Shown here piece after piece: positions 33,895-64,000 of a stretch of 64,000 bases of DNA (position 1 is its first letter; each line of letters starts with the position of its first letter). The DNA is taken from NCBI GenBank assembly GCA_022563195.1, contig JADFNV010000008.1:1-64000 (forward strand), written 5' to 3'. This DNA is from Pseudomonadota bacterium. GTDB taxonomy: Bacteria; Pseudomonadota; Gammaproteobacteria; Steroidobacterales; Woeseiaceae. The notes beneath the pieces were generated by a model, which was not told where the DNA came from, searched no databases, and saw nothing but the letters and a program-made list of their open reading frames with translations. Both the position numbers and the translations under genes were made by a program.

Positions 33895-34256
33895 GGAGTC
33901 GGCCAGGCAATCGCTGCAGTGCACGCACTGTAGAGGAAAGTCCGGGCTCCTTCGGACAGGGCGCCAGGTAACGCCTGGAGGGCGCAAGCCCATGGAAAGT
34001 GCCACAGAAAAGATACCGCCGGGCAATGCCCGGTAAGGGTGAAAAGGTGCGGTAAGAGCGCACCGCGCGACTGGTAACAGCTCGCGGCACGGTAAACCCC
34101 GCCCGGAGCAAGACCAAATAGGGGAATGCGCGGGCTTTGCTCGCACCGCCGGTTCCGAGCGGATTCCCGGGTAGGTTGCTTGAGGCAGCCGGTGACGGTT
34201 GTCCCAGATGAATGATTGTCCTAGACAGAACCCGGCTTATTGCCGGCTCCGACTTT
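33895..34256 (+). ncRNA. rnpB: RNase P RNA, bacterial class A
   Basis: Conserved GAGGAAAGTCCGGGCTCC, CCACAGAAAA, GGTAAACCCC near CCGGAGCAAGACCAAATAGG, and AGACAGAACCCGGCTTA; terminal GGAGTCGG pairs with CCGACT. Confidence 0.97.
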
Positions 34257-52427: not shown

Positions 52428-53342
52428 GTGGCAATGCTACGACAACGAACTTTGAAGACAGCCATACGCGCAACCGGCGTTGGCTTGCATACTGGCGAAA
52501 AGGTCTACATGACCTTGCGGCCGGCCGCGGTAAACGCAGGAATTACCTTCCGACGCGTCGATCTGGACCAACCTGTGGACATTGCAGCGGATGTAAGGCT
52601 CGTTGGCGAAACCATGCTGGGTACGACACTGATCAAGGATGGCGTCAAGGTAGCAACCGTTGAGCACCTGATGTCGGCACTGGCTGGATTGGGAATCGAC
52701 AACGTCAGCGTCGATTTATCGGCCCCCGAGGTACCGATTATGGATGGCAGCGCGGGACCGTTCGTGTTCCTGTTGCAGTCCGCCGGCATCCAGGAGCAAG
52801 ATTCGCCGAAACGCTTCATTCGCATCAAAAAAAGAGTCCGCGTCGAAGATGGTGACAAATGGGCGGAGCTGGTCCCATTCAATGGCTTTAAAGTCAATTT
52901 CGAGGTGTACTTCAATCACCCCGTATTCAACAAACTGACGCAGCACGCGACGATCGATTTTTCGTCAACGTCATTTCTCAAGGAAGTGAGCCGCGCACGC
53001 ACATTCTGTTTTCTGCGTGACGTCGAGGCTCTACGCGAGCGTAATCTGACGCTTGGCGGAAGCATGGATAACGCGATCGTCCTCGACGACTATCGGATTC
53101 TCAATGAAGACGGCCTGCGCTATGCGAATGAGTTCGTTATCCACAAGATCCTTGATGCCATTGGCGACATGTACTTGCTCGGCCATTGCGTGATTGGTGA
53201 GTTTCGCGCCTACAAATCTGGACACGAGCTCAATAACAAGTTGCTGCGGGCATTGCTTGACGAAGAGACGGCCTGGGAAGAGGTAACGTTCGAAGATTCG
53301 CGAAAATCGCCGATTTCCTACGCAACACCGTCTTACGCCTAA
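52428..53342 (+). CDS. lpxC: UDP-3-O-acyl-N-acetylglucosamine deacetylase
   Basis: [56 protein letters not shown]. Confidence 0.97.
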
Positions 53343-53371: not shown

Positions 53372-53671
53372 CTACACTCTGGCGACGCGAACGGTGCAGG
53401 TATTGGCCTCAACGCCTGATGCGCGCGCAGCGGCCATCAGCGTATCGGTTTCGAAGCGCAGTCGCGATGCCCAGGCAGACGAACTGGCCAGAACGATTAG
53501 CTCGCCAGCGCCGCGAATATTGGCGGCGACAATGCTGCCAGCCTCTTCGGCGGGCAGGGAATTCTGCAATATCTGCACTAATTTTCCCATATCGCGCGCA
53601 TGACGGATGATATCGCCTAAACCGCCGTCATCATTTGGATTTAATAAGTTTCCGAGGCGTTTAATTGTCAT
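53372..53671 (-). CDS. DUF721 / DciA-like protein
   Basis: Small protein with LVILASSSAWASRLRFE-like DUF721 core; position next to lpxC. Confidence 0.7.
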   Translation of the reverse strand: MTIKRLGNLLNPNDDGGLGDIIRHARDMGKLVQILQNSLPAEEAGSIVAANIRGAGELIVLASSSAWASRLRFETDTLMAAARASGVEANTCTVRVARV

Positions 53672-53775
53672 AAAAGTGTGACGTGGTTCGCAAATGGGAC
53701 AGTATGCAGCCAGAAAATATCACTGTTCGAGAGCCTGTATCTTGTATTAAAAACTGACATTATGCATATTGTCTG

Positions 53776-53868
53776 TCTCGATAAAGGCAAACTCGCTGAA
53801 AAGTGAGGGCGCAAAACCACCGATCTAAGGGATTCAATCCTAAGATAGCGGGGCTACCGAAGTGAATA
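53776..53868 (+). ncRNA. GEMM / cyclic-di-GMP-I riboswitch
   Basis: GGCAAACTCGCTGAAAAGTGAGGGCGCAAAACCACCGATCTAAGGGATTCAATCCTAAGATAGCGGGGCTACCGAAG closely parallels the GEMM-I consensus as in Vc2 (GGGCAAACC..GAAA..GGGACGCAAAGCC..GGCCUAAACC..GGUAGGUAGCGGGGUUACCGA). Confidence 0.93.
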
Positions 53869-53983
53869 TTGACGGCAGGTCCAGAACAAGAAGAGGTCGC
53901 CAGAAGTGGCGATATGCCTGCACGTCAAGTACAAGCGAGATAAAAAATAACAGTGCGAGTACAGCACACTCGAGGCTTTCTCG

Positions 53984-54916
53984 ATGAATGTAGTCATTTT
54001 CGGCAAGGGCTTTGCTAAGCCCAGGCAGCTGAATCTGTCCGGCCTGTCGGTCGGGGCAATCGCTTTTGTTTTGACCGCGTTTATTTCGCTTATCGGCTTT
54101 GCCGGAGGATACTGGTATTCATCTGTCACCGGTTCAGGCGTTAGCATGACCGAGGCCGCGAACTTGGCGGATGCGCTTGAATGGCAACGCGGCAGTATCG
54201 ATACGATTCGACAGTCGAACGAAGACACGCTCGATGCGTTGGCAATCCGTATAGCACAGCTGAATGCACGGCTTATTCGGCTCGACGCGCTAGGACGCCG
54301 ACTGACCAGCATGGCTGACCTGGAAGATAGTGAATTCGATTTTGATTCTATGCCTGCGCTCGGTGGTCCTGAAGAGCGACTTGCCACAGGTTCCAACGTC
54401 GCAATACCGGACGTTGTTGAAGCTATGCAGTCGCTCGATTATCAGCTTATTAATCGCGAAGCGCAGCTTGGTGTACTCGAGAGCGTGTTGATGACACAGA
54501 ATCTCAGGGACCGGGTGTACCCACAGGGAAGACCGGTAAAGTCCGGGTGGATTTCGTCCTATTTCGGAAAACGGACGGACCCGTTCACAGGCAAGCTCGC
54601 GAATCACACGGGTGTCGACTTCGCCGGTAAGGTCGGCGCGGAAGTCGTCGCCGTCGCGGATGGTGTTGTCACCTGGTCGGCTGACCGTTACGGCTACGGC
54701 ATCATGGTCGAAATCAACCACGGCAGCGGTTATTCGACGCGCTACGCGCATAATTCGGAGAATCTTGTCGCCGTAGGTGACGAAGTCAGGAAAGGCCAGG
54801 CCGTTGCACTCATGGGAGAGACGGGGCGTGCAACCGGGCCGAATCTGCACTTCGAGGTGCTGAAAAATGGCCGCCGAGTCAATCCCGTGAGCTTCATTCG
54901 CGCAGCTGGAAATTAG
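53984..54916 (+). CDS. M23 family metallopeptidase (LytM-type), membrane-anchored
   Basis: N-terminal TM; GWISSYFGKRTDPFTGKLANHTGVDFAG, NHGSGYSTRYAHNSENLVAVGDEVRKGQAVALMGETGRATGPNLHFEVLKNGR. Confidence 0.95.
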   Translation: MNVVIFGKGFAKPRQLNLSGLSVGAIAFVLTAFISLIGFAGGYWYSSVTGSGVSMTEAANLADALEWQRGSIDTIRQSNEDTLDALAIRIAQLNARLIRLDALGRRLTSMADLEDSEFDFDSMPALGGPEERLATGSNVAIPDVVEAMQSLDYQLINREAQLGVLESVLMTQNLRDRVYPQGRPVKSGWISSYFGKRTDPFTGKLANHTGVDFAGKVGAEVVAVADGVVTWSADRYGYGIMVEINHGSGYSTRYAHNSENLVAVGDEVRKGQAVALMGETGRATGPNLHFEVLKNGRRVNPVSFIRAAGN

Positions 54917-55053: not shown

Positions 55054-57975
55054 GTGGCCAATTTTCTGACACGCATCTTTGGCAGTCGCAACCAGCGATT
55101 GTTGCGCCAGTACTCGAAAGTCGTCAGTAAGATTAATCTGCTCGAAGAGGGTTTGCAGGCGCTTGATGATGACGCGTTGCGCGGGCTAACGGGGGAACTC
55201 AAGCAGCGCTACATCGACGGCGAAACGCTCGACGACCTGCTGCCCGAGGCATTTGCAATCGCCCGTGAAGCGGGTCTGCGCACGCTCGGCATGCGGCCCT
55301 TCGATGTCCAGCTCATTGGTGGCATGGTGTTGCACGACGGCAATATTGCCGAGATGCGCACGGGTGAGGGCAAGACGCTGGTCGCGACATTGCCCGCGTA
55401 CCTCAATGCGTTGAGCGGTGATAGCGTCCACATCGTTACGGTCAACGAATATCTGGCGCAACGTGATGCAGACTGGATGCGGCCTGTGTATGAATTTCTT
55501 GGACTGTCCGTCGGCGTCTCCAAGAGCGGCCAGTCGCAAGACGAGAAACGTGAGGCGTACAACAGCGATATCACCTACGCGACCAACAACGAACTCGGCT
55601 TCGATTACTTGCGGGACAACCTGGCTTTCTCTTTGGCTGACAAGGTGCAGCGGAAACTCAATTTTGGGATCGTCGATGAGGTCGACTCGATTCTTATCGA
55701 CGAGGCGCGTACGCCTTTGATCATTTCGGGACCCGCGGAGGCCAGCACTGATCTTTATGCGCAAATCAACAAACTGATCCCGAAGCTTCAGGCACACGAA
55801 GAAACCGAAGCGGCCACAAATTTCGACATCGTGGCGAGAAATGTAACGCTGGTTGATGAGAGTGGCACTGCGCTTACGGTTGTCGATGAGAATGGCGAAA
55901 GTCGCGAAATCATGAGTCTGGAAAATGCCATCGAACTCGGTGAAGAACGCCTGGCGGACGTTGTCGTCGTCGATGACAGCGGCAAAGTGCCGGCGTGCAA
56001 GCTGGTCAGGCGAGGCGATTACACGACAGACGAGAAAGCCAAGCAGGTTCATGTAACTGAAGAAGGGCATCAAAAGGTCGAATCCCTGATGGTGCGCGCA
56101 GGTCTGCTCGAAGAGGGCGATAGCCTTTACGATGCGGCCAATATTCGCTTGCTTCACCATCTCAGCTCGGCGCTACGGGCGCATGCGATTTATCAGCGCG
56201 ACGTAGAATACATCGTTAAAGACGGCGAAGTCGTCATCGTCGACGAGTTCACAGGCCGTACGATGCCGGGCCGACGCTGGTCGGATGGCTTGCATCAGGC
56301 GATCGAGGCCAAGGAAGGCGTCGCGATCAAGCACGAAAACCAGACGGTCGCATCAATAACATTCCAGAACTTTTTTCGCTTGTACGCCAACCTGTCGGGC
56401 ATGACGGGTACGGCAGATACCGAAGCGTTTGAGTTCCAGCAAATCTACGGGCTCGAGGTCGTCGTGATCCCGACCCACCAGCCAATGGTTCGCGCGGATA
56501 ATCCGGACCTTGTTTACCTGACGGAGGAAGACAAGTTCGGCGCGATCGTTGACGACATCATTGACTGCCGAGAACGTGGTCAACCTGTACTTGTCGGCAC
56601 AACGTCGATCGAAACGTCGGAAGTCCTGTCATCATTCCTGCAGAAGCGCAAGATTGATCACGAGGTCCTCAATGCCAAGCAGCATGAGCGCGAGGCTATC
56701 GTCGTTCAGCAAGCCGGGCGGCCAGGCGCTATTACGATTGCAACGAACATGGCAGGTCGTGGTACCGATATCGTACTCGGCGGCAACCTCGACGCTGAGA
56801 TCGCGCGTGGTGGCAAAGATACCGATGTCGAGGCGATCCGCGCGGACTGGCAGGTGCGCCACGACGCTGTAATCGAATCTGGCGGCCTGCACATTGTTGG
56901 AACAGAGCGCCACGAGTCACGACGCATAGACAATCAGCTGAGGGGACGGTCTGGTCGTCAGGGAGACCCAGGATCGAGTCGATTCTACCTGTCAATGGAA
57001 GATACGCTGATGCGCATTTTTGGAGACCCGGACCGGACAAAAAGACTGTTGTCGCGCGCAGGAATGCGCGAGGGCGAAGCGATCGAGAGCAAATTGCTGT
57101 CGCGCCAGATCGAACGTGCGCAACGCAAAGTTGAGGCGCACAACTTTGATATTCGCAAAAATCTGCTTGAATATGACGATGTGGCCAATGATCAGCGCAA
57201 GGTCGTTTACCACCAACGCTCCGAACTCATGGCCGCCGACGAAATCGAGGATTCTGTTGCTGCGATTCGTGACGAAGTTATTTCGATGATCGTTGCACAG
57301 TACATTGCTCCGGGCAGTCTCGAGGAACAGTGGGATCCCGAGGGTCTGGGTAAGGCACTCGAGTCGGAATTTGGTTTGCAGCTGGATATCGCACGCTGGA
57401 TCCGCGAGGACAAGACCCTCAACGACGACGCGATCGTGGAGCGTTGCATCAAAGAAAGCGATGATGCCTACAAGCAAAAGGAAGCTACAGTTGGCAGCCA
57501 GCTTATGCGCAACGTCGAAAAGCAGGTCATGCTGCAGCAGCTCGATCATCACTGGAAAGATCACCTTGCCGGAATGGATTATTTGCGCCAGGGAATCGGT
57601 TTGCGGTCCTATGCACAAAAGAATCCCAAGCAGGAGTACAAGCGCGAGGCGTTCGAAATGTTTGGCGAAATGCTCGATGTAGTAAAACACGACACGATAA
57701 GCATCCTGAGCCGCATACGCATTCAGGGGGAGCAGGATCTTGATGACACCGCGGAACGCCAGCGCGCGGCGAAGGCCATGCAATTCCGCCATGCACAGGC
57801 ATCGGCGCTTGGCGACGACCGGCCCCAGGGCCAGGCGCCCGCGGAAGGGCGGCGGCCTGGCGCCGCGTCACCCGTCGCTCCTTTCGTGCGGGAGTCCCGC
57901 AAAGTCGGCAGGAATGAGCCCTGTCCCTGTGGCTCGGGCAAGAAATTCAAACAGTGTCACGGCAAGCTTACTTAG
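55054..57975 (+). CDS. secA: preprotein translocase subunit SecA
   Basis: [40 protein letters not shown]-terminal zinc-binding [14 protein letters not shown]. Confidence 0.98.

Positions 57976-62588: not shown

Positions 62589-64000
<1,412 letters not shown>

Follow-up and report, generated by a model that had tools for sequence, protein, structure and literature searches.

A c-di-GMP-I riboswitch and a conserved leader ORF precede a LytM/M23 gene between lpxC and secA in Woeseiaceae

Cyclic di-GMP is usually tied to motility and biofilm formation. Control by a leader ORF through translational coupling is exemplified by mgtL/mgtA, where a sensing RNA is separated from the gene it regulates by a short upstream ORF, and coupled cistrons can show an overlap between the stop codon of the first and the start codon of the second. 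Among c-di-GMP-I riboswitches, Vc1, in the 5′ UTR of gbpA of V. cholerae, has its aptamer at the 5′ end of the transcript, followed by a leader at least about 200 nt long with no visible terminator; Vc1-dependent expression in V. cholerae falls when c-di-GMP is lowered, and how Vc1 and Vc2 act without a visible terminator or anti-Shine–Dalgarno sequence is stated as an open question (PMC4744006). On the protein side, the LmdC clade of LytM proteins is described as having a transmembrane anchor, a long helix or coiled coil and a LytM domain, and the degenerate LytM proteins EnvC and NlpD regulate amidases (PMC8416486).

The riboswitch described here resembles the members of Rfam families RF01051 and RF03167 (c-di-GMP-I-GGC) in having a complete aptamer that shows the conserved ligand contacts as well as P2/P3 and a GNRA loop with its receptor, in a cis-regulatory position in a 5′ leader. 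It differs from them in its target, a LytM gene beside secA, whereas many other copies in these genomes precede secreted Ig-like lipoproteins, and in that the aptamer is abutted by the start codon of a leader ORF proposed to be coupled to the gene. We know of no description of such an aptamer-edge leader ORF for c-di-GMP-I, and none was found in open-licence papers; the same literature yielded nothing relevant on the pairing of a c-di-GMP riboswitch with M23 and no paper joining Woeseiaceae and c-di-GMP, so that the c-di-GMP biology of this family appears unstudied. Unlike in mgtL/mgtA-type systems, a ligand aptamer would here hide the ribosome site of the leader ORF itself, and the peptide sequence looks unimportant. 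As for Vc1, the available sections of PMC4744006 describe no coupled leader ORF, and its target is the secreted protein GbpA.

In the window (the whole 64-kb stretch of DNA analysed), dciA and M23 are divergent, and the riboswitch occupies part of the 312 nt that separate the dciA start codon (53671, minus strand) from the M23 ATG (53984). The gene order is lpxC (+), dciA (−), riboswitch, M23 (+), secA (+):

52428–53342, plus strand: lpxC, left anchor of the conserved locus (Pfam LpxC, E 4.4e-108)
53372–53671, minus strand: dciA-like gene, divergent from the riboswitch transcript (Pfam DciA PF05258, 37.6 bits, cut-off 24)
53742–53770, plus strand: putative promoter, TTGTAT, 17 nt, CATATT (leader alignment; weak sigma-70 match)
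53776–53861, plus strand: c-di-GMP-I (GEMM-I) aptamer (RF01051, 83.6 bits, model positions 1–87 complete)
53787, plus strand: G equivalent to Vc2 G20 (hand mapping on the covariance-model alignment and published Vc2 numbering)
53984–54916, plus strand: membrane-anchored coiled-coil LytM/M23 protein of 310 aa (Pfam Peptidase_M23 PF01551, 111 bits)
55054–57975, plus strand: secA, right anchor of the locus (ORF call; neighbour conserved in relatives)

The gene for the DciA-like replicative helicase loader and the riboswitch share this intergenic region, a divergent layout that is kept in relatives. Only two Rfam matches were returned by cmscan for the window, the c-di-GMP-I aptamer and a class A RNase P RNA (33895–34254, plus strand, 327.7 bits). 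The window comes from a Woeseiaceae MAG, as named relatives show; this genome (3.03 Mb, 87 contigs, completeness 82.65%) contains six c-di-GMP-I riboswitches and encodes c-di-GMP metabolism, with 17 GGDEF and 11 EAL matches. A PilB-like ATPase is also encoded in the window (62589–63992, minus strand; complete in L203, 90–1823) and gives an MshEN match of 27.9 bits; c-di-GMP binding by this protein is doubtful because the canonical RLG...Q motif looks degenerate.

The aptamer is an ordinary member of the c-di-GMP-I family. The initial annotation had placed a GEMM-I signature here, and all the motifs that it quoted are present (GGCAAAC, a GAAA loop, GGGCGCAAAACC, ATCTAAGGG and GATAGCGGGGCTACCGA); the covariance model agrees, the RF01051 match standing far above the gathering score of 35 (E 5.4e-15 over the whole 64-kb window, cmscan) and being reproduced on an 801-base segment. 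The mapping that assigns G53787 to Vc2 G20 assigns C53857 to Vc2 C92. The G is invariant in leader alignments A1–A3 (58 sequences), and since the G20-equivalent is G wherever it was aligned, the predicted ligand is c-di-GMP rather than cGAMP, in keeping with the earlier proposal. The GNRA loop and its receptor vary together: GAAA or GAGA loops are found with TCT-type receptors in 64 rows and GUGA, GCGA or GUAA loops with CC-type receptors in 10, with no mixed cases. Such co-change would fit selection on the tertiary contact, and the evolutionary events behind the pattern may be few. No Rfam match beyond chance pointed to a second aptamer in the leader, even at E 10.

Immediately upstream of the aptamer, relatives keep TTGTAAT...GCATATT or GCATAGT in the leader alignment, corresponding in the window to TTGTAT (53742–53747) and CATATT (53765–53770). 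These elements, which a consensus promoter scan did not call, would form the promoter of the riboswitch transcript; because promoter-like sequence is conserved so close to the aptamer, transcription probably begins no more than about 15 nt away from it.

Conservation of the riboswitch at this locus was assessed on 80 orthologous M23 loci taken from named genomes, each of which was scanned with Rfam. Either c-di-GMP-I or its sister family c-di-GMP-I-GGC was found just upstream of M23 in 78 of them, the other two being L140 and L145, and the order lpxC, dciA (minus strand), M23, secA is kept in relatives. The proposed link between aptamer and M23 is thus conserved across the family and beyond, with its own promoter-like sequence. 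Order-wide, the riboswitch was found at M23 in about 9 of the 16 families sampled, those outside Woeseiaceae being f2, f3, f4, f7, f9, f10, f11 and f15; it was not found there in f5, f6, f8, f12, f14 and f16, nor in one of the two f4 genomes. A class-wide draw comprised 143 genomes, including our own and one other genome of the same order: of the 77 further M23 orthologs listed for the 142 other genomes, not one lay beside an RF01051 match, although 25 of these genomes have such matches, scans of more than 40 genomes having been run with stricter filters with which weak riboswitch copies could be missed.

On a tree of 91 M23 proteins, the state 'riboswitch present' has to change seven times, and well-supported branches force at least four of these changes, so the presence of the riboswitch changed several times. 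Searches to E 1 for a hidden or decayed riboswitch in L140, L145, L147, L148, L151, L155, L156 and L159 found none. One of these loci, L140, from an uncultured Woeseia MAG (ERR599156), keeps M23 with neither a riboswitch at E 1 nor a leader ORF frame, and its M23 protein forms a long branch nested inside the riboswitch-bearing Woeseiaceae; it is probably a natural loss of the riboswitch.

Note that other c-di-GMP-I riboswitches are frequent in the order: some genomes hold 10–17 copies, and many copies precede genes for lipoproteins or secreted proteins (L002, L007–L010, L013, L014, L016, L017, L033 and L035), several of which show He_PIG/Ig-like and Fn3-like sequence (Pfam check on L002 only). 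One relative has a second c-di-GMP-I riboswitch near the same locus, on the opposite strand (L097, 1016–1129, minus strand).

The M23 ATG lies 122 nt beyond the aptamer, and a leader ORF occupies this interval:

53850–53853, plus strand: GGGG of the 3′ strand of aptamer helix P3, candidate Shine–Dalgarno sequence for the leader ORF, whose GTG follows 8 nt later (from the sequence)
53862–53987, plus strand: leader ORF of 41 codons, beginning with GTG at the aptamer edge and ending with a TGA that overlaps the M23 ATG (ATGA)
53869–53928, plus strand: strong hairpin inside the leader ORF (folding; equivalent hairpins in relatives with compensatory changes)
53971–53983, plus strand: small CGAG/CTCG hairpin before the M23 start codon, containing the M23 Shine–Dalgarno sequence GAGG (53972–53975)

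The frame of this ORF (+1) is free of stop codons over 110 nt in 73 of 75 Woeseiaceae leaders, as opposed to 14 and 8 of the 75 for the other two frames, and 72 of the 75 combine a start codon at the aptamer edge (GTG in 49, ATG in 15, TTG in 8) with a stop codon overlapping the M23 start, although leaders share ancestry and such counts are not independent events. Lengths range from 31 to 41 codons and vary by whole codons, and the start codon lies 14–17 nt from the aptamer GCGG (14 nt in 59 of 72). The pattern is broken in L096, L126 and L138. It is also largely specific to the M23-linked riboswitches: 87 of 88 have a start codon at −4 to +8 of the aptamer end, versus 7 of 24 other riboswitches, and in 84 of 88 an ORF of 28 codons or more begins with this start codon, versus 2 of 24 (Fisher p 3e-17, not corrected for kinship). 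In M23 orthologs without a riboswitch, the frame is open in 2 of 8 cases from the same order and 2 of 20 from other orders, which corresponds to background.

In other families of the order, the overlap recurs as ATGA in L141, L142, L143 and L157 (and in L162 if the second GTG is taken), as GTGA in L153 and L161 and as TAATG in L163. The ORF stops near the M23 start without overlapping it in L144 and L158 and extends a few bases beyond it in L146; in L150, the vicinity of the aptamer lacks a start codon. In L154, the leader ORF is apparently fused in frame with M23, so that the M23 protein would start at the aptamer edge. At L006, a 473-aa ORF itself begins with an ATG at the edge of a weaker c-di-GMP-I match (41.5 bits), resembling the M23 leader ORF.

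The M23 protein consists of one transmembrane segment (best window residues 21–39), a predicted long helix and, at its C-terminus, the M23 domain; the predicted structure is of low confidence (pLDDT 63, pTM 0.41), and only its helix layout was used. This layout matches the one described for the LmdC clade, with its N-terminal transmembrane segment, coiled coil and LytM domain (PMC8416486). Residues H208, D212, H256 and H289 are kept, as are the HTGVD and YAH motifs and the HxxxD zinc motif of the M23 fold (H208, D212). Whereas LmdC, likened here by layout, is described with an active site, the HxH motif of our protein reads N287-L288-H289: its first His is replaced by Asn and the zinc ligands stay. 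The sequence NLHFE occurs in all Woeseiaceae orthologs read; HxH is found in 29 of 29 orthologs from other orders, and within the order both HxH and Asn occur. According to PMC9662197, zinc is not bound by the first His of HxH, whose role is to activate the water. Since Asn replaces this His, activity is probably impaired, and the protein is probably a degenerate LytM factor rather than a cell-wall hydrolase; by analogy with the factors cited above, it may have an amidase-regulator-like role. The His-to-Asn change is not tied to the switch, since, outside Woeseiaceae, the same riboswitch precedes some orthologs with HxH, and Asn occurs in others that have no riboswitch. The interpretation given by the initial annotation thus stands for the aptamer class, the specificity and the M23 link, but its hydrolase label is not supported as it stands, and it had overlooked the conserved leader ORF between the aptamer and M23, which changes the likely mode of control.

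Starting from what the sequences display, namely the aptamer, the conservation of the locus and of the leader ORF, and the residue change, we infer ligand binding, coupling, the direction of control and the role of the protein as follows. It is fairly probable that the c-di-GMP aptamer gates the leader ORF and that coupling passes OFF control on to the probably impaired LytM factor. The riboswitch would form the 5′ end of a two-cistron transcript (leader ORF and M23), and the aptamer would gate leader translation by holding the Shine–Dalgarno GGGG within a P3 strand, with the start codon abutting it. Without c-di-GMP, the aptamer would breathe and ribosomes would use the GGGG and the edge start codon; their passage would melt the leader hairpins, and the ribosome would restart at the overlapping M23 start (ATGA). 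Since the leader stop overlaps the M23 start, translation of M23 would, under the proposed coupling, depend on that of the leader: when the leader is untranslated, its hairpins, together with the small CGAG/CTCG hairpin (94% paired in close relatives), would hide the M23 Shine–Dalgarno sequence and start. With c-di-GMP, the aptamer would be locked, the leader untranslated and the M23 start hidden, so that the output of both cistrons would fall, which makes OFF the most likely direction. The LytM factor would more likely regulate other wall enzymes than cut the wall itself. In line with translational control, the leader has no intrinsic terminator on the plus strand that could serve as expression platform. 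On the other side, folding calculations gave no consistent long-range pairing between the aptamer and the M23 Shine–Dalgarno sequence, the partners differing among relatives. Note that the leader Shine–Dalgarno sequence is already dictated by the GEMM fold, in which it is invariant, and was not selected as a ribosome site; moreover, because P3 is stable on paper, the GGGG may be inaccessible whether or not ligand is bound, and leader translation would then be weak in both states. The wider proposal, that the aptamer contains the ribosome site for a leader ORF whose sequence is of no consequence, that the signal reaches the LytM factor purely by translational coupling, that this arrangement is kept across much of the order at the secA locus and that in Woeseiaceae c-di-GMP would thereby tune wall remodelling via a non-enzymatic regulator that has lost its catalytic histidine, is put forward tentatively, with slightly less than even confidence.

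What the leader ORF itself contributes can be read in two other ways. The riboswitch may be an ordinary translational or Rho-dependent one whose leader acts through RNA structure only, the open frame being incidental or keeping Rho off. Conserved hairpins with compensatory changes, counted in relatives with controls, point in this direction, as does Vc1, whose long leader is functional in vivo although neither a terminator nor an anti-Shine–Dalgarno sequence is visible in it (PMC4744006). The codons are compatible with a structural leader too: in a single-difference codon test in the ORF frame, the synonymous fractions were 0.288 observed for 0.272 expected and 0.252 for 0.260, that is without synonymous excess, although a weak signal could be obscured by RNA structure within the ORF. 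Yet structure alone would hardly keep one of three frames open across families with exchange of GTG, ATG and TTG and length changes by whole codons, nor place the stop over the M23 start across families, and most other riboswitches lack the ORF; we regard this reading as rather improbable. The product of the ORF could instead be a functional small protein expressed together with M23 under riboswitch control, as the conserved frame, start and stop of the ORF and a recurrent C-terminal HPGRTR-like ending might suggest. However, the same codon test speaks against it, the peptide matches no Pfam or NCBIfam family, its sequence is hardly alignable between families, and the HPGRTR-like ending overlaps the M23 Shine–Dalgarno sequence, which can explain its conservation; a functional peptide is therefore very unlikely. 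The frame is thus kept and the peptide not visibly so, and, the peptide showing no synonymous bias, it is translation of the leader itself that seems to be under selection.

The other two alternatives leave this gating of the leader ORF in place and concern its sign and its target. With an ON switch, c-di-GMP would raise the expression of leader and M23, and Vc1, an experimentally tested case whose leader is also 5′-terminal, loses gbpA reporter expression at lowered c-di-GMP (PMC4744006). The position of the leader Shine–Dalgarno sequence and, in many relatives, of the start codon in or beside helices that the ligand would stabilize argues for the opposite sign, and we hold the ON direction to be somewhat unlikely. 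As to the target, the M23 protein might be an active endopeptidase despite Asn287, in which case c-di-GMP would directly control a wall hydrolase: the three zinc ligands H208, D212 and H289 are intact, as is H256, and the protein is strongly conserved. That Asn occupies the water-activating His position, and is fixed across the Woeseiaceae orthologs read (PMC9662197 for the role of this His), makes activity unlikely in our judgement.

The favoured reading, an aptamer gating a leader ORF coupled to a probably degenerate LytM factor, would have two consequences. For c-di-GMP-I riboswitches, the succession of aptamer, leader ORF and gene would provide a simple answer to the question of how they can act without a visible terminator or anti-Shine–Dalgarno sequence. 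For the Woeseiaceae, whose MAGs derive from many samples, it would mean that c-di-GMP is wired at the RNA level to a cell-wall factor encoded beside lpxC and secA.
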